Of a stretch of 43,203 nucleotides of DNA, positions 3,594 through 43,203 are shown one piece after another. The DNA comes from a virus: the IMG/VR virus record IMGVR_UViG_3300032220_002271, positions 1-43,203 of that record; one strand, written 5' to 3'. Below the pieces are notes generated by a model. It had not been told where the DNA came from. It made no database searches and saw nothing but the letters and a program-made list of their open reading frames with translations. Within the stretch, counting starts at the first letter, position 1; every line of letters starts with the position of its first letter. The position numbers and the translations under genes were made by a program.

Positions 3594-5479
3594 TGAAAGC
3601 GGTCAACGGTCAGGGTTTGGGTGAATTCAGGCATGTTTTCATCCAGGGATAGGTGGCGCACCAGGCCGCGCCAGGTCTCGCCAGGCTCCTGCACTTCAAT
3701 CAGGTAGCCAGGCAGGATCAAGCCCGGGGCCGTGCCGCCCGTGATCAGGGGCACGCTGACCTCCTGCCGCCAGCGCAATGCAGAGTCGGCCAGCGGCACG
3801 ATGCCGCGCTGGCGCACGGCGATCACATCGGTCATCAGCGGATCTGTGATCTGGGCGGCCAGCAGATCGCCAGCGGTACCGGCGCGCACAATCTGGCCTA
3901 CCACACCACCCGCAGCGGAGCCCGACACGTAGACGGCGTTGCGCAGCTCCTGCTCCAGATCCGTCAGAGTGTCCTGCACGATGATCTGCCCAGGCATGAC
4001 GACATCCGGCACCACGCCGGCCCAATTCCAGGGCAGCGCTTTGTACTCGGGCACCAGCTGCAGCACCGGGTCGGTGCGATGGCTGCGAACCACGGCACCG
4101 GCTGCCTCGGCAATGCGCTTGATGACCGACAGCGGCGTGCCCGTGTGCGACCAGGCAGCAGCCGGCACTTGCCAGTCTTCAGCACCCCAATCCAGCGTAA
4201 TGCCTGTGTTCTGCAGCGCCTCGCTGGCAATCTGCTGCACCGACATCTGACTGCTGATGCTCCAGGCCTTGGCGCGCCAGTAGCGTTCCCCGATCAAGGA
4301 CGTCACGCTCTGGCCCGATACAGACGCCTCCCAGCCGTCAAAGCTGCGCGATCGCACCGGCTGCTTGACCGCGAACACCCAATCGATACCGTTGATGGTG
4401 AGCCGGATCTGCTGGGGCACCCCACCCTGCGGAGCCAGAAGCCCCACCAGGTCGACCGGACCAGAGGCAGACAGCGTCCAGCCGAATCCATCGTCACCGC
4501 TCTCGATACGCACACCCGTCAGCGGCACCGGCGCACCAGAGGGCAGCAGCACTGCATTGGATTGATAGACAAGCATGTAAACCTTCAACAAGGGAATGAC
4601 AAACTGCGAACCTGGCTCAGGCGTGGACTGGCAGCAGTAAAAAACAAGGTCTGCCGAAGCAGACCAGGACTTGCAGAACACCAGCTTGATCGGCCCACCG
4701 ACCAGCTGCTCATAACAACCGGGCTTTTCCGGCTCGGGCGGTTTAACCTGCGACTTGCCAGCGGGCGGCTTCATGGCCTGCTGATAGCGGCCCTCAAAGC
4801 CCCTGTAGAGCGGCAGCGATGGGCCTGCACCTGTAATGAAGAGGTGCTGCAGACCCATCGCATCCTGTGCCGTTGCATCGACCATGCGGCGACGGTCGCG
4901 CAGGGCTTCCTGAAACCGCACGGCCCAGCCAGCCCGCACGGGCGCGGCATCCTGGGCTGTGGCCTGCAGCCCCACGCGCACGCTCTGGGCCTCCTGCCAG
5001 CGGGCCTGTGTTGTTGCTCCAGGTAGAGGCCGGGCCTGCTGAAACCTGCCCTGCATTGCCACCCCTTGTCGCTGACCGTCCTGCCAGGAAATGCCGAACT
5101 GCTCTTGCAAGGGCATTGCGTCTTGCGCGGTCGAGACCCAGCCAGCAGGCAGCGCATCCGTGTCTTCCCATCCCGTGACCCAACCTTGCCCCACAGGCTG
5201 CGCCTGCTGGGCACTGGCGGCCACCTCGGCCACCACAGGCCGAGGCGTATCGGTGTTGTAGCGCACGACCGCGCTGCAGCGCAGACCGGGCATGCGGCCA
5301 GCGGCAACCAGATCCTTGCGCACATGCACCAGGGATCTGACCCGCAGACCCGGCATGCGCGCTGCAACGACCAGCGTTGCATCGGGCACCTGCCCGCCGC
5401 CGCCGTCATCGCCAAACACCAGCTCGACCGGGTTGCCGGTCTTGAAGGCGCGGTTAAAGATCAGGTCGATGCCGGCCAT
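3590..5479 (-). CDS. tail hub / baseplate protein with N-terminal repeat region
   Basis: 629-residue structural protein. The C-terminal half (from about residue 300) looks like a phage tail hub: beta-rich stretches (RLTINGIDWVFAVKQPV), an inserted helical part (SVQQIASEALQNTGITLDW) and a DLEQELRN segment, resembling late-control D or gp27-like hubs. Residues about 88-240 hold roughly ten degenerate repeats of an aromatic-or-Ala, Gln, acidic-or-Gln, Ala unit (TAQDAMPL, RFQQARPL, RWQEAQSV, RFQEALRD, RYQQAMKP), separated by about 10-20 residues. The start overlaps the upstream stop by one base. The hub call rests on position (distal tail module) and general fold pattern, not a diagnostic motif. 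Confidence 0.6.
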   Translation of the reverse strand: MAGIDLIFNRAFKTGNPVELVFGDDGGGGQVPDATLVVAARMPGLRVRSLVHVRKDLVAAGRMPGLRCSAVVRYNTDTPRPVVAEVAASAQQAQPVGQGWVTGWEDTDALPAGWVSTAQDAMPLQEQFGISWQDGQRQGVAMQGRFQQARPLPGATTQARWQEAQSVRVGLQATAQDAAPVRAGWAVRFQEALRDRRRMVDATAQDAMGLQHLFITGAGPSLPLYRGFEGRYQQAMKPPAGKSQVKPPEPEKPGCYEQLVGGPIKLVFCKSWSASADLVFYCCQSTPEPGSQFVIPLLKVYMLVYQSNAVLLPSGAPVPLTGVRIESGDDGFGWTLSASGPVDLVGLLAPQGGVPQQIRLTINGIDWVFAVKQPVRSRSFDGWEASVSGQSVTSLIGERYWRAKAWSISSQMSVQQIASEALQNTGITLDWGAEDWQVPAAAWSHTGTPLSVIKRIAEAAGAVVRSHRTDPVLQLVPEYKALPWNWAGVVPDVVMPGQIIVQDTLTDLEQELRNAVYVSGSAAGGVVGQIVRAGTAGDLLAAQITDPLMTDVIAVRQRGIVPLADSALRWRQEVSVPLITGGTAPGLILPGYLIEVQEPGETWRGLVRHLSLDENMPEFTQTLTVDRFQ

Positions 5480-5874
5480 CAGTCGATCCTTGTATCGCCA
5501 AGGATGGCTTTGCCACCTGCGTAGAGCTGGGTACCGGTGCTGCCCAGCAGCTTGAAGTGCCCAGCGCCTGCCTCGTCCGTGACCAGGCCGCGCCCGATCA
5601 GTTGGCCGTCGCTGGTGCTCCAGACGCCGATAGCGGCCTGGCCGTTCGCCAGGATCATGTCGCCGCTGCCGCTGGCCTGGGTCAAGAGCAGATAGCCGCC
5701 GTCCACGATCTGGCCACAGGGCTTGGTGAGCGTCAGCGTGACCAGCAGGCGCTCGCTGGCGTCGTAGAGCGCAATGCTCGATGCATCTGGGCCAGAGTCT
5801 GCAAAAGCAAGAGTGGCCTGCAGGCGGGCCAGTGCATGAGCTGCCGAGATCTCGAATACGAGTGCATCGCTCAT
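5479..5874 (-). CDS. minor tail protein, unknown
   Basis: 131-residue beta-rich protein. I chose the ATG at 5874 (MSDALVFEISAAH) because it overlaps the end of the upstream gene by four bases (ATGA), rather than the longer frame starting at 5937. The middle (GGYLLLTQASGSGDMILANGQAAIGVW) looks like repeated beta strands of a small tail or fibre accessory protein. It lies between the carbohydrate-binding-like tail protein and the hub. No specific family recognised. Confidence 0.65.
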   Translation of the reverse strand: MSDALVFEISAAHALARLQATLAFADSGPDASSIALYDASERLLVTLTLTKPCGQIVDGGYLLLTQASGSGDMILANGQAAIGVWSTSDGQLIGRGLVTDEAGAGHFKLLGSTGTQLYAGGKAILGDTRID

Positions 5875-7199
5875 GCCACCACCTCGGGGATCTGGTTGTT
5901 GGCTACCGCCGAGAAATAGTTCTTCTCGTGATCCCAAGCCTCAATGTCGTACTCGTAGCGCTCGTTGATGCCTTCAAAGCGGTAGCTGCCGTCTGCTGCG
6001 CTCCAGACCTCGCGCACCAGATAGCCGTCACGGCTGCGAAACAGGCGCACGCGGCGCTGCAGCAGGGTCTTGCTCTTGTCGTCACTGACCATGCCGTAAA
6101 AGCGACCGCGCCCGCCAAACTCGATATCCAGGCCTGCAGGAGATTCGCATGCCGCAAACTTTGCAGCTGCAGGCGCAATGCCCAGATCCTTGGTCATGGC
6201 CTGCAGCTGCATACCCGGGGCGCGCGAGTCCAAGATGGGCCGCACCGCATTCAAGTGACACGAATAAGTGATGTAGCCGCCAATGTAGAAAAAGACCCCC
6301 AAGCGAACCGTGGCGAGCATCGTTGCCGGAGGATTGAACACCACCGAGACAACGCCATTGAGCTTCACCGTGATGCCCCCAAAGTCGTCCACCACAATGC
6401 CCATCGTGTATCTGGTGTTGGTCATAAGACCCCCCAACGGCATGGGCAACTGCTGGTAGACCGTTTCTGCATTGCCGAAAGCGCCCGCAAAGTAGCTCAG
6501 CACCAGAGTGCCATCCAAGGTGGCGATGCGGTAGCCATAGGTCGGCCTGGCGGGGTCAAACAGAAAAAAACCAATGTGCCGACGTGAAGTGGCGTCGTCC
6601 ACGATCTTGAAATCGAACTCGGCCCCCATACCCTTGAAGCTCGCCTCTTGAGGCAAAGCGTCAAAGGCATAAACCATGGAGTTGCTGCTCACCGAGGTAC
6701 GCACGCCACCGTCCTCCATGCTCTGGCTCGCAAAACCGCCCAAGGGCATTTCCAGGTTTCGGACATCACTGATCTGCGTGAAAACAGCGGACAGGTCATC
6801 GCCGGGACTCAGCGAAAACAGCCCGGTGATGGCATCCTTCTGAAACCGCCCGATCACAGTCGCCCAGGCGCCCTCTGCCTCGTAAAACGCCTCCAGCACA
6901 AAGCCATACAGCGGCTCTGTATCGACCAGCAACTGCGTGGGCTCCACAGCTGCCGCGAACGTCCACAGGATGCTCCAGCCTGAGGCCTTGATGTCAGTGA
7001 CCGCAAATGCTGCCGCCGTGCCGGCATCGCCGTCCGTCAGAGCACCCAGGCCGTCACCGCCTACCGGCAAAGGGCAAGACAGAGCCGCAGCGGCATCGAT
7101 GGGGCCATTGGCATCACACAGACGCAGTGCCCGTGCCGACCAGGAACCGCTTGCCTGCCCCGTTTCCAGGGCTCGGATACGCCAGCGCATCGCGGCCAT
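5871..7199 (-). CDS. tail protein with LamG-like and carboxypeptidase-regulatory-like domains
   Basis: 442-residue protein of the distal tail. The middle region (about 165-330) reads like a concanavalin/LamG-type jelly roll (GAEFDFKIVDD, HIGFFLFDPARP, YRIATLDGTLVLSYF). The C-terminal 75 residues resemble a carboxypeptidase-regulatory or Ig-like fold (GMVSDDKSKTLLQRRVRLFR, then GSYRFEGINERYEYDIEAWD). Such modules often bind host surface sugars. Start and stop are coupled to both neighbours. A receptor-binding role is inferred from domain type and location. Confidence 0.6.
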   Translation of the reverse strand: MAAMRWRIRALETGQASGSWSARALRLCDANGPIDAAAALSCPLPVGGDGLGALTDGDAGTAAAFAVTDIKASGWSILWTFAAAVEPTQLLVDTEPLYGFVLEAFYEAEGAWATVIGRFQKDAITGLFSLSPGDDLSAVFTQISDVRNLEMPLGGFASQSMEDGGVRTSVSSNSMVYAFDALPQEASFKGMGAEFDFKIVDDATSRRHIGFFLFDPARPTYGYRIATLDGTLVLSYFAGAFGNAETVYQQLPMPLGGLMTNTRYTMGIVVDDFGGITVKLNGVVSVVFNPPATMLATVRLGVFFYIGGYITYSCHLNAVRPILDSRAPGMQLQAMTKDLGIAPAAAKFAACESPAGLDIEFGGRGRFYGMVSDDKSKTLLQRRVRLFRSRDGYLVREVWSAADGSYRFEGINERYEYDIEAWDHEKNYFSAVANNQIPEVVA

Positions 7200-16394: not shown

Positions 16395-16577
16395 ATGAAC
16401 GGTTTGCTCTGGTGTGTAGTCTTGGTGTGCGTCGGCTTGCCGCTGGCCCTGCTGGGCCTGCTGCTGGATTCCGAGCGCATGATGGCCCTGGGGGCCGGGG
16501 CCATCGCCACCGTGGTGGTGGGATGGCCCGTGCTGCTACTCATGGGCCTGGTACAGACGCCTGTACGCAAGCGCTGA
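16395..16577 (+). CDS. small two-helix membrane protein on the opposite strand
   Basis: 60-residue ORF with two hydrophobic segments (LLWCVVLVCVGLPLALLGLL and ATVVVGWPVLLLMGLV) and a basic tail. The ATG is preceded by GGAG at a good distance (bases 16383-16394). It faces against the leftward late operon and fills the gap between tape measure and tail tube, where tail chaperones usually lie. Its last codons contain a 16-bp near-palindrome (16551-16566) repeated twice elsewhere in the window. It may be a lysogeny-expressed accessory gene, for example in superinfection exclusion; that role is a guess. Confidence 0.5.
   Translation: MNGLLWCVVLVCVGLPLALLGLLLDSERMMALGAGAIATVVVGWPVLLLMGLVQTPVRKR
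16551..16566. repeat. 16-bp repeat GTACAGACGCCTGTAC, copy 1
   Basis: Exact copy of a 16-bp near-palindrome: arms GTACAG and CTGTAC around ACGC. It lies eleven bases before the end of the small membrane gene at 16577 and encodes VQTPV. Other copies lie at 25122-25137 and 34745-34760. Confidence 0.75.
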
Positions 16578-24976: not shown

Positions 24977-27162
24977 TAGCGTATCCCTCTCGAAAGTATG
25001 CGACGCCCCACTGGAGGCCTATTGATGGCGGCTGCCACTGGTGCCGGGGCCAGTGGCGCAGGGGCTGGAGCAACCGGGGCAGGAGCTGCAGGCTCTTGTG
25101 CCGGGGGTTGCGGCGGCGGGGGTACAGACGCCTGTACGGTCTGCGCCGTAGGTTCAGGCTCTGTCGCGGGTATAGGTTCGGGCTCTACAGGCACGGCTGG
25201 CGCAATGTCGGCCATGGGAGCGGGATCTGGTGCAGGGGCCAGCACAGGGACGGAAACGGGCGCAGGCTGAGGAGCAACAGCAAACAGATCAAGATTGGCC
25301 GGGATCAGCCTGTCACGCAGGCGCTTCCAGTCCAGCGCAGACCACTTGTGCAGGCCGAGCTGGTGCGCCAAAGCCAAGTTGTAGACGGACACGTCCCAGG
25401 CCTCATTACGCGCGCCGTTCGGCTTGACCCACTCGCGCACCGGGCGGCCCTTTCGCCATTTCGTATGGGGCTGCTCCACGACCATCATGTCGAACCACTC
25501 AGGCGGCAAATCTTCGTGGAAGTGCATTGCACCGCCGCCCTCAGTGAGCAGCATGCGATTGCTGAGCCAGTCCTTGGCGACGTCAGTGCCGACCGTCCAC
25601 AGTTCCACGCCTCCCTTGACTTTCTCACCGCCCCAATCAATGTCCACCTTGCTAGGCGCGCTGCCCATGATGGGGCGATTGGGACGACTGGAGCCGTGAA
25701 GCACCACGCAGTTGAGCGCCCTGCGCGCCTGGCCGTAGTTGTAGACGTCCTGGGTGTTGGCACCGCCCGAGTCAATGCCGTAGGCACTCAACATGATGGG
25801 CCTGCCGCTGGCATGAAGCAGCGGAGTGCGGCGGATCGTGTCCAGCCGTTGCCAGACGCTGCCTGGGACATCAGCGCTTTCCGTGGGCGAGCCATTGAGC
25901 ACGATGTAATCGATCACCCAGTGCTCCAAACCAGGCCCCCAGGCCTCGATTTGAACTTCCAGGCGATTGGGCTGCGTATCCACCGCCATGGTCGCCACCA
26001 GTGCAGCATCGGGCAGCACGCGCAGGGGGTAGTCTTCGGCGCGACGGCGCAACTGCTCGGCTGTGGTGGTCGATTCGCTATTCTTGTAGCTGAGGCCTAG
26101 ACGCGTGTTGTAGAACACCTGCATGGCTTCGTGATCACCACGCTTCACCCGGTCGCGCGCCCGGGCCAGCTGACGGGCCAGAGCCAGCCAGGTAATGGCA
26201 CCAATCGGCATGTAGAAGGCCGACAGTGTGAAGCTGACAGTTTCTCCATCGCCCTTGGCAGTCGCCACCCAGCGCGCCTGGCCTCCTGCAGCTTCATCCG
26301 GAAGCATGGTGACCTTGTGGCGTTCATCTATATCCGCACCACATTCTGGGCAAACAAACCAGGCTCGATCCATGAAGCCGGTTTCTTCATCCCGCGCATA
26401 TTTGAAGTTCTCCAGCTCCAGGGAGTGCAGATGCCCGCAGTCATCATGCGGGCACGGAACAAAGTACTTTTCCTTGGTGCCCATTTCATAGAGGGTGTCG
26501 ATCTTGGAAAAGCCTTCAATGCCGGGGCTGGAGGTGTACAGGAACTTGCAATCGTTGGCGTATTGCGTGGCGCGGGCCTCGGCCAGCTCGACCGGATCGC
26601 CCTCCCCGTCGACATCGAGATCCAGACGGTCGATTTCGTCTATGTAGATGTAGGGCGCGGAGACTTCTGCCAAGTTGGCCGCAGAGCCTGCGGTATTCAT
26701 GTACAGCGTCGCATCACCCAGAAAGTCCTTGGCCTGGGTGGTGTTGCGAGAATCGCGGCTCTTGGCTGCTGCAACACGTTCGCGCAGCTCCGGCACGCTG
26801 CGGATCATCGTGGAAACGCGCGCTGAAAAGCGCTTGACCAGGGTGTCTGTCGGCTCAAGCGCGAGGATATTGCGCGGCCTACGGTGCATCAGCGAGCCAA
26901 TCCAATTCAAGGCCGTCTGAGTCTTGAACATCTGCGAGGCGACCTTAGCCACCACGCGCTTTGCAGGATGGGAGGGCGACAGCACCTGGTGCACACGCCT
27001 GGCGGGATAGCTGCGATCAAACCGGAATGGACCAGGCTGCGGGCCGCTCTTCGGCAAGACCATGTACTGCTCTGCCCACTCATCGCAACGCAGCTCAGGG
27101 TCAGGCCTTGAAGCCTCGATTGCGGCCTCCAGCATGAGCGTGTAACCGTCCGCAAGATTCAT
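24976..27162 (-). CDS. terminase large subunit (lambda gpA family)
   Basis: 728-residue packaging ATPase and cos nuclease. A gpA-type core is visible: WAEQYMVLPKSGPQPGPFRF near the N-terminus, a degenerate Walker A in KVASQMFKTQTALN (about residue 93), Walker B YIYIDEIDR (about residue 176), a Cys cluster (CPHDDCGH and CPECGAD) and nuclease-region residues near VATMAVDTQPNRLEVQIEAW. Compared with the roughly 640 residues of lambda gpA, it has an extra Pro/Ala/Glu-rich tail of about 90 residues. The tail contains an inverted copy of the 16-bp repeat (25122-25137). The start overlaps the small subunit stop. Confidence 0.92.
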   Translation of the reverse strand: MNLADGYTLMLEAAIEASRPDPELRCDEWAEQYMVLPKSGPQPGPFRFDRSYPARRVHQVLSPSHPAKRVVAKVASQMFKTQTALNWIGSLMHRRPRNILALEPTDTLVKRFSARVSTMIRSVPELRERVAAAKSRDSRNTTQAKDFLGDATLYMNTAGSAANLAEVSAPYIYIDEIDRLDLDVDGEGDPVELAEARATQYANDCKFLYTSSPGIEGFSKIDTLYEMGTKEKYFVPCPHDDCGHLHSLELENFKYARDEETGFMDRAWFVCPECGADIDERHKVTMLPDEAAGGQARWVATAKGDGETVSFTLSAFYMPIGAITWLALARQLARARDRVKRGDHEAMQVFYNTRLGLSYKNSESTTTAEQLRRRAEDYPLRVLPDAALVATMAVDTQPNRLEVQIEAWGPGLEHWVIDYIVLNGSPTESADVPGSVWQRLDTIRRTPLLHASGRPIMLSAYGIDSGGANTQDVYNYGQARRALNCVVLHGSSRPNRPIMGSAPSKVDIDWGGEKVKGGVELWTVGTDVAKDWLSNRMLLTEGGGAMHFHEDLPPEWFDMMVVEQPHTKWRKGRPVREWVKPNGARNEAWDVSVYNLALAHQLGLHKWSALDWKRLRDRLIPANLDLFAVAPQPAPVSVPVLAPAPDPAPMADIAPAVPVEPEPIPATEPEPTAQTVQASVPPPPQPPAQEPAAPAPVAPAPAPLAPAPVAAAINRPPVGRRILSRGIR
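25122..25137. repeat. 16-bp repeat GTACAGACGCCTGTAC, copy 2
   Basis: Second exact copy, within the Pro/Ala-rich 3' part of the terminase gene. Because that gene is on the minus strand, this copy is inverted relative to its host gene and is read as VQASV. Confidence 0.75.
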
Positions 27163-28189: not shown

Positions 28190-29857
28190 TTATTCATTCC
28201 CCTCTGCTGCAGCAGAATCAGGGGCCGGGGAGCCAGCTCCATAGCCCAGGTACTTGCGCAGCTCGCCCTCGAACGACTCCACGGCCTTGGTGGCCCACGC
28301 GCCCTCGGTCATCTTGCTTTGGCCCTCACCTAAGACAGGCTCAGCCACCAACAGCATGCGATGGGACTTTCTTGCCGCCCCCGGCTGCGCCACGTTCATG
28401 ACCTTGATCCGCGCTGGTGAGTTCATCGTGTCTGAGAAACGCGTGAGAGTGCTTGAGAACTTCGTTTCGTTATCTGGAAACCGCTCCCCTGTGCGTTGGC
28501 ACCATTTGATGTAAGCCCGATAGGCCTGAGAGCGCGAGCATGAGCGATACGGCAGATCCAGCTCGCCATCAGACCATTCAGCCCAGAATCGCTCAGGACT
28601 CTTGCGATTGAGGCCGATCAGGTTGCCCTTGGCCTCGGTCATGGGCGGCTTGGTGTAAGGGCTGAATCCATCCAAGGGATATGTCAGCAGGTACTCATAG
28701 AAGGCCTCAACCCCGCCGTTGTCACGCCACTCGCCCAGGTCGATGTAGTACTGATCCTCTTTGGCCTTGGGCGTGTACACGACCAGGTAGCGCCGGTCCG
28801 TGTTGTCGAGGGCCAAAGGCTGCGTTTCATTCGAGAGAAACACGATATTCATGTGGTTCTTCTCTTCGCGCCGGATCTGGTGCTTGGAGTTGATCTGCAC
28901 CGTGGGCGAGGTGATCAAGGCCTTGAGCCGGTTCTTGTTGTGCACCAGCTCGGACCGGCTCATGATTTCGTCGCCCACCACAAACTGCTTGCAGCTGCGC
29001 CAGTCATTGAACTTGTCCTCAAGCTCATCCTGACCAACGATGCTGGCGTATTTGCCGTAGATCTGCACCACGGTCTCAAACAGAAAGTTCTTTCCCGCAC
29101 CTTCATCGCCATGCATCACCACGGACGATCGCATCTTGGCCCCAGGGTGCTGCAGTGGGTATGCCAGCCAGCGGATAAGCCACTCCATCACCAGGCCGGT
29201 CTCGGTCTCATCAGACGTGGCCCGACTTACCAAGAACTTGATCAAGTCGAGCATGGGCTGGACGTTGCCCTTCTTCGGCACCATCGCCATGCCCTCATAC
29301 ATGTTGATGACGCGATCGGTGTCGCACTTCATCGTCGGATCGAACACCAGCTCGTCGGCGCGTATCGTGCGGCGCTTCTCGCTGGCCTTCCACATCGCCA
29401 CCAACTGGCTGCCGTGGGCGTGCCCCATGTTGCTGATCTTCATGATCATGCGCTCGGAGTCATCCCAGACCGTGTCTGTGCCATAGAGCAGAGCGAAGTT
29501 TTCAACCAGATGGTTGAACTTGCCCCAGTCGATGGTTTTCTCCTTCTTACGGCCCTGTACGGGCTTCTCAGCGGTATCGCCGGCACCCTCCTCGCTCCCC
29601 CCATCCCCTTTGGTGCGCGCAGTAGCGCGCTTCTTCGGGGGGGCGGGGGGCGGGGGTGCGCCGGCCTCTGCCGGCACTCGCACCCCTGCTTGAAAGTCAA
29701 CGCGCACAACTGAGCCTGCTGCAGATTCGCCCGCAGCAGGAGACCCATCCAGCGACGCATTCGCGTCGGGGGCAGGCAACGCCTGCGACTCTTCGGTCGC
29801 AGGCGGCGGTGGCGCAAGCGCTCCGCCATCATTCAACTCTGTATCGTTATCGGCCAT
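28190..29857 (-). CDS. SF3 replicative helicase (DUF5906-like primase-helicase)
   Basis: 555-residue replication protein. The N-terminal 100 residues are Pro/Ala-rich and probably disordered. The helicase part has Walker A GDEGAGKN (about residue 250), Walker B FVVGDE (about residue 292), a sensor-type IVFLSN (motif C) and an Arg-finger region DNTDRRY. It would unwind DNA as a hexamer at the phage origin. The iteron array lies 17 bases past its stop codon. The start overlaps the end of the Toprim gene by 11 bases. A shortened, motif-less relative is encoded at 34810-35448. Confidence 0.88.
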   Translation of the reverse strand: MADNDTELNDGGALAPPPPATEESQALPAPDANASLDGSPAAGESAAGSVVRVDFQAGVRVPAEAGAPPPPAPPKKRATARTKGDGGSEEGAGDTAEKPVQGRKKEKTIDWGKFNHLVENFALLYGTDTVWDDSERMIMKISNMGHAHGSQLVAMWKASEKRRTIRADELVFDPTMKCDTDRVINMYEGMAMVPKKGNVQPMLDLIKFLVSRATSDETETGLVMEWLIRWLAYPLQHPGAKMRSSVVMHGDEGAGKNFLFETVVQIYGKYASIVGQDELEDKFNDWRSCKQFVVGDEIMSRSELVHNKNRLKALITSPTVQINSKHQIRREEKNHMNIVFLSNETQPLALDNTDRRYLVVYTPKAKEDQYYIDLGEWRDNGGVEAFYEYLLTYPLDGFSPYTKPPMTEAKGNLIGLNRKSPERFWAEWSDGELDLPYRSCSRSQAYRAYIKWCQRTGERFPDNETKFSSTLTRFSDTMNSPARIKVMNVAQPGAARKSHRMLLVAEPVLGEGQSKMTEGAWATKAVESFEGELRKYLGYGAGSPAPDSAAAEGNE

Positions 29858-32248: not shown

Positions 32249-32258
32249 AAGCCCGCAT

Positions 32259-32312
32259 ATTACCATTTGGTATTTCAAAACCAATACTTTTTGGTGTTTT
32301 ACTTAACGGTAA
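32259..32312. promoter_or_regulatory. divergent operator region (immunity switch)
   Basis: Three palindromic sites lie between the Cro-like and CI-like genes: TACCATTTGGTA inside 32259-32274, ACCAA/TTGGT arms at 32280-32295, and TTACTTAACGGTAA at 32299-32312. The first overlaps a TAATAT -10 for the leftward gene (with TTGGTT 16 bases further upstream as a possible -35). The first and third recur at 33487-33502 and, inverted with one difference, 33513-33526. Confidence 0.75.
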
Positions 32313-32336: not shown

Positions 32337-32801
32337 ATGAGTGACACCGAAGACCCAGTCGTTGCAAACCGACGCAGTAGGCTCAAACTCTGGATCGACA
32401 CGCGCTGTGACGGCTCCCAGAAGCAATTCATCGCCTCTACAAACGATGGGGAAAAGCAGATCAACCAGGGCGAGCTTTCTGGGCTGCTACGCAGCAAATC
32501 TTTCGGAGAAAAGCGCGCAAGGTCTCTAGAAAAGCAGGCACACATGCCTGCAGGCTTTCTAGATGCTCGCTCTGACGCGTCCGAACAATCGGCACTCATC
32601 GCTGCAGAACCAACACCCGTTTACGGCCCCTCCTGGCCGTTCCGCAGGGTCTCGCATGAACGGCTCACGGCTTTACGCCAGCACTTGGGCCCGCAGAGAT
32701 TCGCAGATGCCATTGATGACATGGACGAGCTGCTGGAGTCGACGCTTATCAAATGGGAACGCAGAGCGGAGACAGACGCCGTTAAAAGCGCTGCCGCGTA
32801 G
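32337..32801 (+). CDS. CI-like repressor without peptidase domain
   Basis: 154-residue protein. The N-terminal 75 residues (RRSRLKLWIDTRCDGSQKQF, INQGELSGLLRSKSFGEKRA, RSLEKQAHMPAGFLD) match the HTH domain of S24-type phage repressors in Burkholderiales. The expected C-terminal autopeptidase (Ser/Lys) domain is absent; instead there is a short helical tail (RVSHERLTALRQHLGPQRFA, DDMDELLESTLIKWE) likely for dimerisation. It would maintain lysogeny by binding the operators at 32259-32312 and 33487-33526. GAGGG precedes the ATG. Induction cannot occur by standard self-cleavage. Confidence 0.78.
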   Translation: MSDTEDPVVANRRSRLKLWIDTRCDGSQKQFIASTNDGEKQINQGELSGLLRSKSFGEKRARSLEKQAHMPAGFLDARSDASEQSALIAAEPTPVYGPSWPFRRVSHERLTALRQHLGPQRFADAIDDMDELLESTLIKWERRAETDAVKSAAA

Positions 32802-33468: not shown

Positions 33469-33486
33469 ACAGTCGAAATTCATCAA

Positions 33487-33529
33487 ATTACCATTTGGTA
33501 TTGCAAAGCTAATTACCATTAAGTAATAT
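33487..33529 (+). promoter_or_regulatory. early rightward promoter with repressor operators
   Basis: TTGCAA (33501-33506), 17 bases, then TAATAT (33524-33529) forms a plausible sigma-70 promoter. Operator ATTACCATTTGGTATT (33487-33502) touches the -35, and TTACCATTAAGTAA (33513-33526) covers spacer and -10. Both sites also occur in the divergent region 32259-32312, so the same repressor should shut off this early operon. Confidence 0.75.
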
Positions 33530-33563: not shown

Positions 33564-33860
33564 ATGTTTTTACATCCATTGATAGCGCTGCTGGAGGCGC
33601 TACAACAGGCCGAGCGGTTCGCCGCGGGCTTTGAAGACGATGCAACCCAGCAGCCCGCAGTCAACGATCTGCTGGTCAAGTTGCGTACCCAGATCCAGGT
33701 CACGCTGATTGCGATCGACACCCTGCGCGTGCAGATGGCCTGCCGCGTCGCCAACACCAGCTTCAACGAATGGGCCACTAAAAAGCTCTTCCAGGTCGCG
33801 CCAGGCCAGCCCGACGCCGACGCTGCAAACACCCCTCAAGAGCCGGGGGTGCAGCCATGA
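33564..33860 (+). CDS. first early-operon protein, unknown
   Basis: 98-residue helical protein starting MFLHPLIALLEALQQAERFA, with a C-terminus that is Pro/Ala/Glu-rich and ends in GVQP. No recognised domain. It is the first gene behind the early promoter, and its ribosome site lies in a hairpin. Its stop overlaps the next start by four bases (ATGA), within a 19-bp sequence repeated at 35566-35584. It may be a regulator or host-takeover factor by position only. Confidence 0.65.
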   Translation: MFLHPLIALLEALQQAERFAAGFEDDATQQPAVNDLLVKLRTQIQVTLIAIDTLRVQMACRVANTSFNEWATKKLFQVAPGQPDADAANTPQEPGVQP

Positions 33861-33865
33861 GCAGC
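33847..33865. repeat. 19-bp direct repeat at gene junction, copy 1
   Basis: GGGTGCAGCCATGAGCAGC spans the stop of the first early gene and the start of the second. An identical copy lies at 35566-35584, at the junction of the 44-codon gene and the next membrane gene. The repeats bracket 1.7 kb. Confidence 0.75.
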
Positions 33866-34798
33866 ACCGAGCACAACTCCAGCAACCTGCCTTTGCAGCT
33901 ATCAGTGCTGCCTCAGGATCTGCTTCGCACTTTGCAACGTGCAGCCAATAGCCTCGATCTGGACATCGATGGACTCACCGTTGCTGAGGTCGTAGAGCGT
34001 TACTCCGCTTTGGGATGCCAAATTACCCTCGACTTCGCAGCCCGCATCCTGAATGAATCCCCCTCTGCGGGCGCGCGCCACAGAGATGTCTCCGTTCGCC
34101 AAGAGAATAAAGGCGACCTGTCGGTCAGCGGTAATGAAGACGATGGTGCCTTTGATCATTTGCACAGTGTAAGCAGCAATCTCACGCTGCGCTTCTACGA
34201 ATGGCAGTGCGGCCACCACGGCACACGCCCGCAGGACATCCCTGTATCCAGCCCCGAGCAGGCGACCGCCATCTTGGTGGCGATGAGCCACTGCATCAAC
34301 CAGCCAGGCCATTTCTGCGCCTGGCTGATGGATGAAAAGTACGCCGTCGACGCCTATGTCACCGACGACTATGTGTCGACGACGACCGGGCACAGCAAGA
34401 GCTTCCCCGTCTGGTCTGAGCTGAATTTCAACGACGAGCGCCCCCTGCTGATCTACGGCACTGCAGATCAGATTGCTGAATTGCGCCACCCAGACAACGC
34501 CGAGGCCGTGGACTGCATTTGGTTCTACGAATCGCTGCCCTCTTGGGACGGGAAGACGTTCCTGGACCATGACGTCGCCACCACCACGCTCACCCTCGCA
34601 GAGCTGGAAAACATCACCCGACCACACGAGTGGTATGAGCCTGGCAGCGCAAGCCTGTTTGCCCTGCCTCCCATCTTCAAGACCGCCGAATCCGCCCTTG
34701 AAGAAGTACGCCAAGAGCGCGCCAGCATCGCCGCCTGCAGCGACGTACAGACGCCTGTACCTGCGACCGATCCCACCCTCCCCACCACAGCCGATTAA
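33857..34798 (+). CDS. early-operon protein, unknown (313 aa)
   Basis: 313-residue acidic protein. The N-terminal 70 residues are helical (LPQDLLRTLQRAANSLDLDI, LTVAEVVERYSALGCQITLD). The rest is a mixed domain rich in aromatics (RFYEWQCGHHG, CINQPGHFCAWLMDEKYAVD, VWSELNFNDERPLLIYGTAD). No catalytic signature seen and no family recognised. Its 3' end carries the third 16-bp repeat copy (34745-34760). It starts within the 19-bp repeat and is followed after 11 bases by the helicase relative; both lie in the repeat-bounded cassette. Confidence 0.65.
   Translation: MSSTEHNSSNLPLQLSVLPQDLLRTLQRAANSLDLDIDGLTVAEVVERYSALGCQITLDFAARILNESPSAGARHRDVSVRQENKGDLSVSGNEDDGAFDHLHSVSSNLTLRFYEWQCGHHGTRPQDIPVSSPEQATAILVAMSHCINQPGHFCAWLMDEKYAVDAYVTDDYVSTTTGHSKSFPVWSELNFNDERPLLIYGTADQIAELRHPDNAEAVDCIWFYESLPSWDGKTFLDHDVATTTLTLAELENITRPHEWYEPGSASLFALPPIFKTAESALEEVRQERASIAACSDVQTPVPATDPTLPTTAD
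34745..34760. repeat. 16-bp repeat GTACAGACGCCTGTAC, copy 3
   Basis: Third exact copy, in the last codons of the 313-residue gene, again read as VQTPV in frame. It lies 36 bases before the stop codon. Confidence 0.75.
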
Positions 34799-34809
34799 GC
34801 GAGGCTTGC

Positions 34810-35448
34810 ATGACTACAACCACTCACACCCCTCATGAAAGCGCCGTCATGGGGCTGATCCGTCAGTTAGCCAACAACGATGAAGCCAAGGTGCAGCAGC
34901 TACTGGCATGGATGGCTGCCCCACTCCAAAAACCCGGCCACAAATTGCAGCAAGGCCTGCTGCTTGCAGAGCGCCAGTTAGGCGGCAACTGGCTGCTGGC
35001 GGCAATTCTTTCGGAGATCTACAGCGACAGCGGCCTGTGGATGTATGCAGAGAACATGAGCGCCAAATTCACATTTTTGCGCCCCGAAACCCGCTTGCTT
35101 TGCGTCAGTCACGCCGGGTTCGACCTGTTTCGCGGCAGCCGATCCAATCCGCCCACAGCTGAAAAGCTCAAAACCCTGATCACCAGCCAATCGGTTCAAC
35201 TGAACCCCAGGCACCAAGAGCCCCAAACCATCCCAAACCACCTGAATGTCGTGTTTCTCACAGGTGCCGCAAACCCCTTTAACGAGTCCGACCGCCGCTG
35301 GTTCGTCATCGAGCCCAAGCACGACCTGCAGCTCAGCCAGCAAGACGATTACCTGCTGAGCTACTCCAACCGCCTGGAGCGCACCCTGGCTCTGAAAAAC
35401 CTGCTCATGCGCCACAGCATCAACAGCAACGCTCTGGAGGCCGTATGA
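34810..35448 (+). CDS. ATPase-dead relative of the phage SF3 helicase
   Basis: 212-residue protein that aligns with the core of the helicase at 28190-29857. Matching segments, in order: LLAWMAAPLQKPGHKL (helicase IRWLAYPLQHPGAKM), LKTLITSQSVQLNPRHQ (LKALITSPTVQINSKHQ), NHLNVVFLTG (NHMNIVFLSN) and NESDRRWFVIEPKHD (DNTDRRYLVVYTPKA). The Walker A position holds ERQLGGNW instead of GDEGAGKN, and the Walker B position holds LLCVSHAG instead of FVVGDE, so ATP hydrolysis is not expected. The N- and C-terminal helicase extensions are missing. It may dampen or regulate the active hexamer, or have a new role. GAGG precedes the start. Confidence 0.78.
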   Translation: MTTTTHTPHESAVMGLIRQLANNDEAKVQQLLAWMAAPLQKPGHKLQQGLLLAERQLGGNWLLAAILSEIYSDSGLWMYAENMSAKFTFLRPETRLLCVSHAGFDLFRGSRSNPPTAEKLKTLITSQSVQLNPRHQEPQTIPNHLNVVFLTGAANPFNESDRRWFVIEPKHDLQLSQQDDYLLSYSNRLERTLALKNLLMRHSINSNALEAV

Positions 35449-35579
35449 CCCAGCGCTACCAGGTCAAGGTCGGCAAGCTGCGCTATGTTGGTGAGTACAC
35501 CTCCGCCAGCGTTGCCATCCTCATTGCGCAGTGCATCTTTGGCGTGCACTCCGCATCTGCCCTGCGGGTGCAGCCATGA
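35445..35579 (+). CDS. unlisted 44-aa protein
   Basis: Reading from the ATG at 35445 gives 44 codons (MTQRYQVKVGKLRYVGEYTS, then a hydrophobic AILIAQCIFGV part, ending RVQP). The start overlaps the preceding stop and the stop overlaps the next start, both as ATGA, which is strong evidence of a real coupled gene. No function recognised. Its last bases belong to the second copy of the 19-bp repeat. Confidence 0.65.
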   Translation: MTQRYQVKVGKLRYVGEYTSASVAILIAQCIFGVHSASALRVQP

Positions 35580-35584
35580 GCAGC
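35566..35584. repeat. 19-bp direct repeat at gene junction, copy 2
   Basis: Identical to 33847-33865. Both copies straddle a stop/start ATGA junction, so recombination between them would remove three genes and leave an intact junction between the first early gene and the membrane gene at 35576. Confidence 0.75.
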
Positions 35585-35755
35585 CGCCCTACACACTTCA
35601 TCACGCGCCACGACACCGCGCATACGCGGGAAATGCGCCGGCAGCGCCGCGTGTTGGCAGGCATGGCTGTTGCGCTGGCGGTGGTCATGGCGCTGACCGT
35701 GTCGGCCCCGTTCTGGGCCTCGCTCTACCTGTGCGTTCGCTGGGGGTGCCAGTAA
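35576..35755 (+). CDS. small single-span membrane protein
   Basis: 59-residue protein from the ATG at 35576 (MSSRPTHFITRHDTAHTREM), with a basic N-terminal half and one hydrophobic segment (VLAGMAVALAVVMALTVSAP) before a short tail. I chose this start for its ATGA overlap with the preceding gene. The stop overlaps the next start (TAATG). Orientation by charge suggests the N-terminus is cytoplasmic. Role unknown. Confidence 0.62.
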   Translation: MSSRPTHFITRHDTAHTREMRRQRRVLAGMAVALAVVMALTVSAPFWASLYLCVRWGCQ

Positions 35756-36081
35756 TGGAGCAAGCCACCGCCAACACCATGCAGCTGCGCATCAAGGGCA
35801 CCGTGACGGACTGCGTCTGCCGCACAACGACCAGCGGCCACGCTCAGCTCGAGATCAAGCTGGCAGCACCAGGCCAGCAGCTGGTGCGCGCCATCCACAC
35901 CTACCCCAACAAGAGCCAGGCCAGCCTTCACGCGGCCAGCAGCCTGGCGCGCCAGCTCAAGGGCAAGCAGGCCGAGCTGTACGCCACAGAACCCCGCTTT
36001 GCACGCCAGCGCCTGGACTGCATTGCCCAACACATCGCCTTTGAACCCTCTACGCCCTCGCGCAAGGACATCGACTCATGA
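35755..36081 (+). CDS. early protein, possibly OB-fold-like
   Basis: 108-residue protein from the ATG at 35755 (MEQATANTMQLRIKGTVTDC), which overlaps the preceding stop by one base (TAATG). The first half shows alternating strands (QLRIKGTVTDCVCRTTTSGH, AQLEIKLAAPGQQLVRAIHT) and the second half is basic and helical. This loosely fits a small nucleic-acid-binding OB fold such as an SSB-like protein, but no diagnostic motif is present. It ends in an ATGA overlap with the next gene. Confidence 0.6.
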   Translation: MEQATANTMQLRIKGTVTDCVCRTTTSGHAQLEIKLAAPGQQLVRAIHTYPNKSQASLHAASSLARQLKGKQAELYATEPRFARQRLDCIAQHIAFEPSTPSRKDIDS

Positions 36082-36365: not shown

Positions 36366-36583
36366 CCACCGCCTGCAAGAACTGCAGCCAATGGCAACCG
36401 GACAGCAGCGCTGCACGCATGGTGCAGCACGGCTTTGCCAACTGCAGCCGCCAGCGCCTGGCCTGGCGCTATGTCAGCGCCGACAGCAGCTGCAGCCGCT
36501 TTGATGCCCTGCCCGCCGACCAGGTCGAGGCCCGCCGCAAAGCCGCAACGGAAGCCGTGCGCGCACTCAAGGAGAAAAAGTAA
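36362..36583 (+). CDS. small Cys-containing early protein
   Basis: 73-residue protein starting MTTACKNCSQWQPDSSAARM. Cys residues at about 5, 8, 28 and 44 (CKNC, NCSRQR, SSCSRF) could bind a zinc ion, followed by a basic helix ending KEKK. A second protein of similar size and Cys-rich design lies at 41091-41303 and also ends in a Lys/Glu-rich tail. It overlaps the previous gene by four bases and the ParB-like gene by one base. Zinc binding is inferred. Confidence 0.62.
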   Translation: MTTACKNCSQWQPDSSAARMVQHGFANCSRQRLAWRYVSADSSCSRFDALPADQVEARRKAATEAVRALKEKK

Positions 36584-38754
36584 TGGCTACCAAAGACCCC
36601 CTGCTCGACCGCCTGGTCACCATCAACGACGACGCCACCACCAGCAAGGGCAGGCCACATCCCCAGGCCGGCCTGCAAGCCAAGGTGATCGGCAAGACCC
36701 CCAACGGTCGCCAGTACCAGCTCGACTGCGAAGGCACGCTGATCAATCTGCCTATGGCCGATTTCAGCCTGGTCAAAGCCGACAGCGCTGAGCCGCTGGC
36801 TGAGTCCGATGCCACGTCCGAGCAGCCATGCGCCGAGCTGCACAAGTTCGTCCCCAGCCGCACCAACCGAACAGTCGCGGAAGACGACGAGCTGCACGCG
36901 CTGGCCGCGACCATCAAGGCCTACGGGATACTGCAGCCCATCATCGTGCGCAAGCTGCCGGCAGAGCGCCTGCAGGACACCTTCGAGAATCCTGCAACCC
37001 GCAAGGCAGCTTTCGAGATCATCGCCGGCGAGCGCCGCTTTGTGGCCGCTCGCGTTGCCGGCCTGCGCTCGGTGCCATATCTGCTGGTAGAGGCCGACAA
37101 TCAGTTGGCCCTGCAGATGCAGCTGATTGAAAATCTGCACCGCCAAAACCTCAACCCCATCGAGGAGGCCCGACAGCTGCAGATGCTGATCGAGGACTTC
37201 CAGCTCACCCGTGACGACGCCGCAGACGCAGTCCGCAAGAGCCGCACCCATGTCTATGAGACTCTGCGCCTGCTGTCGCTACCCCACACAGCGATGCAAG
37301 CCCTCAAGGATGGCCGGCTGCCGCGCAGCCACGCGCTGCTGGTGCTGCAGCGCCCCACGGTCGCCATGCAGGAGGAGTTTGCCGAGCGCGTCCTAACTGG
37401 TGGCCCCGACGGCGGCACCATGAGCTTTCGCAGCGCCCAGGATCTGGCTCGCCGCAACTACATGACAGAGCTGGACAAGGCTCCGTTTGACCTGGCGGAT
37501 GCCCTGCTCTGCCCCAAGGCCGGCGCATGCACCAAATGCCCCAAGCGCACCGGCGCAACGCCAGACTTGTGGGACAAGCAAGTCCCCGACTCCTGCACAG
37601 ACACTGCCTGCTTTGCAGACAAGAAAGAAGCCCAGCTCGCCCGCGTGAAAGCCGAGGCCGTCCAGGCTGGCCGCCAGATCATCAGCGGCAAGGCTGCGCG
37701 CGACATCATGCCGACCGAGACCGGCACCCTGCGCGGCTATATCGCCCTGGACAAGGCCAGCCAGGGCAGCAAGGCCGAAACGCGCCAGGTGCTCGGCCAG
37801 GACGTGCCCGCCAGCCGCGTCGTGCTGATCGAGACCCCCAGCGGCGGCTTTACCGAGGCCGTGCCCGTGCATGCCGCAAGCGCAGTAGTGCAGGCCCAGT
37901 CAGCTACCGCCAAACCAGAGAAGACAGCCAAGAAAGACAAGGCCCCGCCAGCAGTTGAACCATCACGGGCCGAGCTGGAGGCCGAGTACTCCCGCCGCTG
38001 GCGCGAGGAAGCGGTCGCCTCCACGATCGACGGCCTGTACTGCTGCAAACCCGACTCACTGAGTTACATCCCCAGCCACGCAGCGCTGCACATCCTCAAG
38101 AAACTGGCTGCAGGCGTTTCGCGGGAGTGCCTGTTGATGATCTTTCACATCCCCCCGAATTCCACCCGGGCCGATGACGAACTTCAAGAAGCTATCGAGA
38201 GCGCCGCAGAGCAAGATTTGCCAGAACTGATCAGCTACATGCTGCAGCTGGCCTGCACGGCAGACCTTAAGGAAGATCCTGCACGCCCGGGCGATGCCCC
38301 GATCATCGAGGAGCTGCGCGACCTGTCCAACTGCGACCTGGAGACCATCCAGACCGAGGTGCAGGATGAAATGAAGGCCGAAGCCGCAAAGCGTGCGGGC
38401 AAGCCGGCCAGCAAACCCACCGGCAGCAAGGGCACGACCAAGGTCAAACAGCAGGAGGCCAGCGCAGCCATTGCCAAGGCTATGCAGGCAGCGGATGCGG
38501 CGATCGCAGCGACTGAATTTGAACCAGGCCAGACCGTCCGCATCAAGGTCGACCTGCGCGGTCCTGAAAAGGCCTTGCTGCCCACGCGCCAGCGCCTGGC
38601 TGTCATCAAGCAAAAGATGGGCGACCGCGCCTTCATGGTGGAGCTGCCCGCAGATCCCAAGGCAACCCCGACCGACATGGTCGAGCGCTGGGTCATCAGC
38701 GCCGACTACACCGAGCTGCAGGCCGTAGAGCAAGCGGAGGCCCAGCATGCGTAA
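36583..38754 (+). CDS. large ParB-like protein
   Basis: 723-residue protein. Residues about 85-200 form a ParB/Spo0J N-terminal domain with GERRFVAA (about 148-155, the CTP-binding type motif) and LIENLHRQNLNPIEEA. A KorB-type HTH region follows (about 200-265). A Cys cluster near residue 305-345 (CPKAGACTKCPKRTG, CTDTACF) could bind zinc. The C-terminal 350 residues are long helices and a basic Lys/Ala-rich part. No ParA is encoded in the window, so classical partition is unlikely without a host partner. It may act in replication, recombination or transcription. The start overlaps the preceding stop (TAATG). Confidence 0.82.
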   Translation: MATKDPLLDRLVTINDDATTSKGRPHPQAGLQAKVIGKTPNGRQYQLDCEGTLINLPMADFSLVKADSAEPLAESDATSEQPCAELHKFVPSRTNRTVAEDDELHALAATIKAYGILQPIIVRKLPAERLQDTFENPATRKAAFEIIAGERRFVAARVAGLRSVPYLLVEADNQLALQMQLIENLHRQNLNPIEEARQLQMLIEDFQLTRDDAADAVRKSRTHVYETLRLLSLPHTAMQALKDGRLPRSHALLVLQRPTVAMQEEFAERVLTGGPDGGTMSFRSAQDLARRNYMTELDKAPFDLADALLCPKAGACTKCPKRTGATPDLWDKQVPDSCTDTACFADKKEAQLARVKAEAVQAGRQIISGKAARDIMPTETGTLRGYIALDKASQGSKAETRQVLGQDVPASRVVLIETPSGGFTEAVPVHAASAVVQAQSATAKPEKTAKKDKAPPAVEPSRAELEAEYSRRWREEAVASTIDGLYCCKPDSLSYIPSHAALHILKKLAAGVSRECLLMIFHIPPNSTRADDELQEAIESAAEQDLPELISYMLQLACTADLKEDPARPGDAPIIEELRDLSNCDLETIQTEVQDEMKAEAAKRAGKPASKPTGSKGTTKVKQQEASAAIAKAMQAADAAIAATEFEPGQTVRIKVDLRGPEKALLPTRQRLAVIKQKMGDRAFMVELPADPKATPTDMVERWVISADYTELQAVEQAEAQHA

Positions 38755-41707: not shown

Positions 41708-41957
41708 AGTAACCATAACACTGCTCCCCGCAGCCCTGGCAAAGGAACAGGCAGCGCCTTTTCTGTCCCTGAGCGAGTCGACCTTTGAGAAGCTGGTGCG
41801 GGAGGGCAGTCTTCCCAAGCCCAGGCAACTGGCAGACCGGCGCGTAGCCTGGGTCCGATCGGAGCTGGAAGCCTGGCTCCTGCAGCGGCCTCATTCTCAA
41901 CAGCTGCCCCCACCGAACACAGGGGCACCTAAGCGGCGATCAGAGCCTCCAGCTTGA
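41700..41957 (+). CDS. AlpA/excisionase-type HTH protein
   Basis: 85-residue DNA-binding protein with a MerR/AlpA-type HTH: FLSLSESTFEKLVREGSLPK, then ADRRVAWVRSELEAWLLQ. Such proteins bind near attachment sites and steer integrase towards excision. I chose the ATG at 41700, which has GGAG six bases upstream; an ATG at 41688 is also open. Its 3' end overlaps the convergent integrase gene by 29 bases, as often seen for xis/int pairs. Confidence 0.78.
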   Translation: MAEVTITLLPAALAKEQAAPFLSLSESTFEKLVREGSLPKPRQLADRRVAWVRSELEAWLLQRPHSQQLPPPNTGAPKRRSEPPA

Positions 41958-43203
41958 CGCTCAAAGCACTCAGCCACTCGATGCGCTCCGCATCGTAGTG
42001 GTAGAGGTTGTAATCACCGGCCACGCCGGGAAGAACGTGCCCCAGAATAGCCTCCCCCACCTCGTGGGGGCACCCCATAGAAGCTAACAAAGTGCGTCCA
42101 GTGCGCCTCAGGTCATGGGGCGACCAATGCGTAACCGTCAGTCGCTCCCGCTGGTGGTCATCACGCGAATTGCTGTAGGGCTGGAAGTAATGCACCTTGG
42201 ACTGCATGTATGACTGGTGCTGGACTTTGATCGTCCCATCGCGCCCCTTACAGGGGAACAGCAGTTCCCCATGATCAGCCAGCAGGCGCTGCACGATCTT
42301 TTCAGCCCTGCCAAATAGGGGCACCCTCAAGTGATACGCAGACTCAATATGGCGAGTCTTCATCCCGCTCTTGGGGATGGTCCACCACCATTGACCATCC
42401 TGAGCCTGGCTGATCTGACTGCGCTGCATGCGGCATATCTCAATACCACGGGTACACGTCCACAGCTGCAGCTCTAAGAAGTCACGCACCTGCTGGCTGA
42501 ATCTAGGCAGATCCTCCAGCACCAGTAGCTTGATCTCTTGATCCGACAGCACCCGCTTGTCCGTCCCCTTGTGCTTGCCTTCTCGCATTGCCCCCTTGCT
42601 ACGAAGCTTCAAAGAGGTCTTTTGCTCCCACCAGTTGGGCAAGTCATCACTCACGCGGCCAGATTCCTGAGCCAATCTCCAGGCCGCTGCCATCTCGGAT
42701 TTGACCGACCTGGCGAGCATCGGTCTGTCAGATAGCCCCCGGATAAGCTCGAACACCACACCACGCGACACCGAGTGCGCCGGCAAGACAGCGATCGACG
42801 CGACTGCCTTTCGCAGCCGCAGAGTCACCTGATGTGCCCCCTTGGGCGCTCGACTTACTTGCAGATACTTGACGCTGTAGTCCTCCACCATCTGACTCAC
42901 GGTGTAGGAACCAGGCACCGAACCCACCGGCGCAGCACGACTGACTTTCTTCTCGATCGCCGGATCTCGCCCTTCGTTTCTGGCCGCCTGGAGCTTTTTC
43001 CATTCAGCTATCGCATCAGATATAGAGACCTCCGGCCATATACCAATCTTGATCTGCCGCAGCTTCTGATCCAAAGTGCTGCGGTAGCGATATGTCCAGG
43101 TTTTTCTGGTGATCGAGGATTCAAGCCTCAACCCCGGACAGCCTTGGACGACAATATGCTGACCAGGCTGAAGTGCTTTGGCGTTCCGCGCATCGAAATA
43201 CAT
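41929..43203 (-). CDS. tyrosine integrase
   Basis: 424-residue site-specific recombinase, complete and starting at the last base of the window. N-terminal arm-binding region, then a SAM-like core-binding domain and the catalytic domain with family residues: Arg in CTRGIEICRM (about 254), HDLRR (about 370), GHVLPG (about 393) and a Tyr in the YNLYHYDAERIEW segment near the C-terminus. It would integrate and, with the neighbouring AlpA-type protein, excise the phage. The attachment site is expected just beyond the right edge and is not visible here. Confidence 0.92.
   Translation of the reverse strand: MYFDARNAKALQPGQHIVVQGCPGLRLESSITRKTWTYRYRSTLDQKLRQIKIGIWPEVSISDAIAEWKKLQAARNEGRDPAIEKKVSRAAPVGSVPGSYTVSQMVEDYSVKYLQVSRAPKGAHQVTLRLRKAVASIAVLPAHSVSRGVVFELIRGLSDRPMLARSVKSEMAAAWRLAQESGRVSDDLPNWWEQKTSLKLRSKGAMREGKHKGTDKRVLSDQEIKLLVLEDLPRFSQQVRDFLELQLWTCTRGIEICRMQRSQISQAQDGQWWWTIPKSGMKTRHIESAYHLRVPLFGRAEKIVQRLLADHGELLFPCKGRDGTIKVQHQSYMQSKVHYFQPYSNSRDDHQRERLTVTHWSPHDLRRTGRTLLASMGCPHEVGEAILGHVLPGVAGDYNLYHYDAERIEWLSALSVKLEALIAA

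Follow-up and report, generated by a model that had tools for sequence, protein, structure and literature searches.

Two junctions between overlapping genes in the early operon of a temperate phage carry the same 19 bp. This raises the question of whether the three genes between them form a removable unit, or whether the junctions instead mark sites at which neighboring genes have been exchanged. The window analyzed here is the complete 43,203-bp viral record IMGVR_UViG_3300032220_002271, which by gene content is a tailed temperate phage: The terminase, portal, capsid, and tail genes lie on the minus strand, the ParB-containing early operon lies on the plus strand, and an integrase is found at the right end. 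The features needed to follow the argument are:

33564..33860, + strand: g98, a 98-aa gene (ORF), left neighbor of the interval in question
33847..33865, + strand: left copy of GGGTGCAGCCATGAGCAGC (exact match), a mosaic breakpoint
33857..34798, + strand: g313, a 313-aa gene (ORF) with relatives in L009, L047, and L045, and a C-domain in L176
33868..34185, + strand: N-terminal module of g313 (blastn gap between 33867 and 34186; protein alignment)
34810..35448, + strand: g212, a 212-aa inactive relative of DUF5906 (D5-like AAA+) helicases (Pfam; alignment)
35445..35579, + strand: g44, a 44-aa gene of the operon core (ORF)
35566..35584, + strand: right copy of GGGTGCAGCCATGAGCAGC (exact match), the conserved g44/g59 joint
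35576..35755, + strand: g59, a 59-aa gene with one membrane span predicted by eye (ORF and relatives)
35755..36081, + strand: a 108-aa gene conserved in the operon (ORF and relatives)
41929-43203: tyrosine integrase of ordinary type

The repeat pair is exceptional for its length

Each copy of GGGTGCAGCCATGAGCAGC spans an ATGA stop/start overlap, the left one between g98 and g313 and the right one between g44 and g59. A preliminary description of the window had located the repeat at these two overlaps, with a 313-residue gene, a dead helicase relative, and a 44-codon gene between them; the exact matches, the ORFs, and a DUF5906 match all agree. The ninR genes of phage lambda are interlinked by ATGA.

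Within the window, the pair is both the longest exact direct repeat and the only one of 19 bp, and we find no further match with three or fewer mismatches (0.05 expected from shuffling). Repeats of 19 bp occurred in none of 300 first-order Markov simulations. Among 1777 junction pairs from 135 loci in other viral contigs, exact identity around ATGA extends over 12 bp at most, compared with 19 bp here. In 2.9 million viral contigs, a set that may omit records very close to the window, exact matching recovered the 19-mer from a single contig, the sister, through its left copy, so that the repeat is not a common feature of unrelated junctions, as it would have been under one objection foreseen in the preliminary description. 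In all 229 loci fetched, the matches to the 19-mer are known left or right joints only.

Relatives were collected in three ways. Sequence search of viral contigs gave the sister (IMGVR 3300010214_000037, or L009; 92%-95%), and sequence search also gave a related Comamonas terrae prophage (L045/L005). L046 and L047 were added by genome search within the genus of C. terrae, and a DNA-motif scan added nine phages (L175-L183) whose ParB proteins are 52%-58% identical to that of the window. No relatives of the interval were found among phage GenBank records at either the DNA or the protein level. The g44/g59 joint was compared in 10 phages (the window, L009, L045, L046, L047, and L175-L179), with ParB identity down to ∼55%.

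One joint is conserved and the other is a breakpoint

The sequence GGTGCAGCCATGA is kept at the g44/g59 joint in 10 out of 10 phages that have this joint, despite ParB divergence of up to ∼45%. The right copy is thus an ancestral operon joint, and g44, which is retained with the same C-terminal VQP in all 10, belongs to the operon core. This conservation bears directly on the earlier proposal that recombination between the copies would remove three genes and rejoin the operon undamaged. The geometry is right, since g98 and g59 would be left with a proper ATGA joint after collapse, but the core gene g44 would be deleted as well.

The left copy has a much narrower distribution. Near-identical copies are limited to the close clade of the window, with a couple of bases different in L046, and the left joint of L176 is one base shorter (GGTGCAGCATGAGCA). 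The N-terminal part of g98 is conserved in L009, L047, L046, and L175-L179 (it is missing from L045), and its C-terminal part is replaced relative to L175-L179. Between the window and the sister, 146 of 150 positions are identical immediately to the left of the left copy, whereas identity immediately to the right is at background level. Homology stops at the left copy in all three comparisons made (window vs. sister, L047, and L046): The left copy is a true mosaic breakpoint. More widely, 66 homology ends fall within 20 bp of the junction motif against 16.6 expected, from pairs that are not independent of each other, and the enrichment per joint at other ATGA joints is nearly equal to that at the motif. 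Since these other joints break homology nearly as often, we do not claim that the 19-mer itself promotes exchange.

How two joints with such different distributions came to share 19 bp can be explained in two ways. Under pure convergence, preferred codons in GC-rich DNA would have produced the same sequence twice. Both upstream genes do end in Val-Gln-Pro-stop and both downstream genes start with Met-Ser-Ser; a related joint that is one base shorter is found in L176 at the equivalent left position, and in L180 and L055 at other joints; and the first base of the sister's right copy already differs. An identity beyond that of every null junction pair, none of which shares >12 bp, is nevertheless uncomfortable for convergence alone, which we consider unlikely, and points to local copying between joints. 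In that case gene conversion or intragenomic exchange would, in the course of an earlier swap of modules, have transferred the g44/g59 joint to the end of g98, as the replaced C-terminal part of g98 and the breakpoint at the left copy would also suggest. We advance this only tentatively, given that L176, L177, and L179 already have a similar left joint and that left and right copies differ by a few bases within L046 and L047, which indicates that no homogenization is ongoing.

Genes between the joints vary independently

The gene content of the interval, which we refer to as the slot, differs among relatives:

Window, L009, and L047: g98-g313-g212-g44-g59
L046: g98, an unrelated-looking 251-aa gene, g44, g59; both joint copies present
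L045: g313-g44-g59, without g98 and g212; right joint only
L175 and L178: g98-g212-g44-g59
L176: g98-g212-g313 C-domain-g44-g59
L177 and L179: g98-(g212 fused to a domain of the L046 gene)-g44-g59
L180-L183: no match to g98; the conserved 108-aa gene and parB are preceded by other genes

The difference between the window and the sister is confined to the N-terminal third of g313 (positions 33868-34185), with identity resuming downstream. L009 and L047 have a different, shorter module here, and the N-terminal type of the window is common to L045. Thus g313, its N-terminal module, and g212 are each present, absent, or swapped independently. The varied gene sets indicate that modules are combined freely, with the left edge and the middle of the slot changing independently of each other.

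These data weigh heavily against a removable cassette, in which recombination between the copies deletes three genes as a unit, or in which the unit was once inserted with duplication of its target. The region between the repeats is indeed variable, and the preliminary description was correct in seeing a site of gene turnover, with a break of homology at the left repeat; what turns over, however, is not one unit. Apart from the retention of g44 and the separate histories of g313, its N-terminal module, and g212, we find neither a recombinase nor a transposase in the segment, and recognize none among the early genes scanned. Every product of collapse would contain the 19-mer, so a scan that returns only the left copy of the sister reveals no collapsed form. 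The relatives that had been suggested as a check, lacking the cassette and carrying a single 19-bp copy, are accordingly absent both from the 10 phages and from the viral contigs scanned. Nor is the locus fixed, with both genes and both repeats in all relatives: Gene content and copy number vary, in a manner that is not cassette-like. We regard the cassette as very improbable, although a rare deletion may occur within a lysogen population, the comparison having covered contigs and loci rather than reads.

Searches of g313 against Pfam, PHROGs, and PADLOC gave no match, and a PDB profile search with the 313-aa family gave matches at chance level only. The AlphaFold2 models have mean pLDDT values of 47.8 for the 313-aa protein and 35.0 for the 212-aa protein.

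Several further features were seen in or near the slot. The fusion of the helicase relative with the domain that is unfused in the L046 slot gene lies at 4779-5924 in oriented L177 and 4825-5970 in oriented L179. Upstream of g98 or the slot, L177, L178, L179, and L181 have a gene resembling a zinc ribbon with membrane helices (MISKQCLKCG...). In the window, a 30-bp A+T-rich repeat containing ATTACCATTTGGTATT occurs at 32256-32285 and 33484-33513 (87% alike, ∼1.2 kb apart); its copies flank a repressor-like gene (32337-32801) and a 196-aa gene and are possibly operator or promoter sites.

Stepwise loss of catalytic motifs in g212

The match of g212 to DUF5906 scores 27.8 bits, against a curated Pfam cut-off of 27.6. 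The same phage encodes an intact divergent paralog, to which g212 is 29% identical:

28190..29857, − strand: 555-aa primase-helicase, DUF5906, VapE-like

The Walker A, Walker B, and sensor-1 residues, all retained in the 555-aa protein, are missing from g212, which has AERQLGGNW and CVSHAG where the intact form has HGDEGAGKN and VVGDE (Walker A and B). An alignment from 10 phages shows intermediate states among the helicase copies of the slot. Walker A is intact (GSGKS) in L180 and L183; its lysine is replaced in L175-L179 (GNGT, GNGQ), with Walker B still DE in L175, L176, and L178; and every catalytic motif is gone in the window, L009, and L047. L045 and L046 have no g212.

The dN/dS ratio of g212 relative to the sister is 0.18, which indicates that the protein has been kept, though not as an active enzyme. 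Between the window and L047, dS is 1.7 for g212 compared with 0.3-0.4 for g98 and g108. The alleles of g212 are far more diverged than the backbone and must therefore have been exchanged. The gene is an old resident of the slot that has been progressively inactivated, not the cargo of a recent cassette. Its product might be an inactive subunit working with a D5-type helicase, or it might interfere with the helicase of a rival. In oriented L180 (∼4930-5254) and L183 (5094-5423; both in reverse-complement coordinates), another short piece of this helicase family (ITIFFTSGAVDFLPPEGTNDRRFMV) seems to be fused to the small membrane protein downstream from the 44-aa gene.

A degenerate form of the junction in early operons

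Among 103 candidate ATGA joints from the early operons of 15 phages, 24 have a degenerate version of the joint, GG[TC]GC[AGT]GC(C)ATGA; the corresponding counts are five of 1029 ATGA joints in other viral contigs and none of 31 on the minus strand of the window. Such joints recur at the boundaries of slots, and L176 has three of them, one preceding g212, one preceding the g313 C-domain, and the third at g44/g59. By inspection, the only candidate for a ribosome-binding core is GGTG or GGGTG five bases from the ATG, and the structure at the two 19-bp joints is unremarkable, with no special RNA fold. The most economical function for the joint would be coupled ribosome entry, through GGTG, a spacing of five bases, and ATGA. 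Our preferred interpretation is that the repeat is a start-associated sequence marking the boundaries of a variable slot.

A parS-like palindrome in the tail of g313

The operon that harbors the slot also encodes a ParB-like protein, and the 3′ end of g313 contains a candidate site for it:

34745..34760, + strand: GTACAGACGCCTGTAC, a 16-bp near-palindrome in the g313 tail, probable parS-like site
16551-16566 and 25122-25137: further copies of GTACAGACGCCTGTAC, in the same orientation as the copy in g313
36583..38754, + strand: 723-aa ParB-like protein with ParB_N (PF02195), including a GERRF motif, and HTH_ParB (PF17762)

The 16-bp palindrome GTACAGRCGYCTGTAC is present in two to three copies per prophage, and also in L225-L229, L046, and L045. 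The G045 prophage, the G052 prophage, and the sister have three copies each, spaced 8.6-12 kb apart, and the G045 and G052 genomes (4.7 and 6.1 Mb) have no exact copy elsewhere. In L046, where the remainder of the slot gene is different, 26 bp around the palindrome are retained and the palindrome is perfect.

In viral contigs, a scan with GTACAGRCGYCTGTAC matched 95 stretches. A relative of the window's ParB is encoded in 15 out of 18 tested records of at least 30 kb with the motif, but in only two out of 20 with the reversed motif. With three records set aside because the palindrome lies within parB itself, a possible coding coincidence, the count is 12 out of 15 (P ∼ 5 × 10⁻⁵), a strong association but, since shared phage ancestry inflates it, not proof of binding by ParB. 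In these ParB-bearing phages the 16-mer is perfect and its flanks have diverged. We found no mention of the perfect palindrome GTACAGACGTCTGTAC in the papers searched. Judged by sequence, GTACAGACGCCTGTAC is probably a parS-like site of the phage's own ParB-like protein. It is possible that this is an orphan ParB with dispersed parS-like sites (GTACAGRCGYCTGTAC), and that selection for the one in the slot gene preserved its 3′ tail while the rest was swapped at start-associated boundaries.

A probable variable accessory slot

The explanation that we favor, and hold with good though not full confidence, is that temperate phages of a Comamonas-type group have, between g98 and g44 of their early operon, a variable accessory slot in which genes are exchanged piecewise at start-associated joints. 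Three kinds of module would come and go singly: a fragment of a D5-like ATPase turned pseudo-enzyme, the domains of g313, and the domain shared by L046, L177, and L179. Exchange would take place at gene starts, and the repeat would be a boundary sequence in which an SD-like GGTG, about five bases, and the ATGA overlap couple the translation of neighbors; such coupling would be the reason for the conservation of the joint. The right copy would be ancestral and conserved, and the left copy would have been made identical to it in the clade of the window by copying or convergence. The slot genes may have accessory functions, for example, in superinfection or directed at the host. Read in this way, the locus offers, in place of a tempting cassette, a clear example of genes exchanged piece by piece at coupled joints.

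Comparison with known systems

In cluster K mycobacteriophages, start-associated sequences provide the closest parallel to the joints: a 13-bp GGGATAGGAGCCC that contains a core SD and is located a few bases ahead of the start, in ∼15 copies per phage (PMC3203893). The joints described here resemble these sequences in being short, phage-specific rather than host-wide, and recurrent at the starts of non-structural genes, in a single orientation and in the position of a ribosome-binding site. They differ in that GGTGCAGC(C)ATGA includes the stop/start overlap, that it carries no more than a weak GGTG, and that each phage has just one to three copies. Phage mosaicism has also been proposed to be guided by short conserved boundary sequences (discussed in PMC3029335). 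The short identical sequences at joints where the homology of relatives breaks fit this description; unlike in that proposal, other ATGA joints here break homology about as often.

With D5/DUF5906 phage primase-helicases (solved relatives by sequence, 6k9c, 6k9e, and 6lrb), g212 shares an alignable AAA+ core but neither the Walker A, Walker B, and sensor-1 residues nor any of the flanking domains. Its path from active-looking to inactive ATPase can be traced stepwise at one operon position.

The ParB-like protein has the ParB_N and HTH_ParB domains and the GERRF motif of ParB/parS systems, together with a multicopy 16-bp palindrome that is specific to the replicon. Unlike in those systems, no ParA was recognized among the proteins scanned (a part of the ORFs), and the candidate sites are 9-12 kb apart and mostly inside genes. 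Orphan phage proteins with the ParB-CTPase fold, which may have a role beyond partition, have been described (PMC12704722), and the protein of the window shares the ParB_N domain with GERRF and the HTH_ParB domain with them. The most valuable by-product of this analysis is a candidate binding site for an orphan phage ParB family.
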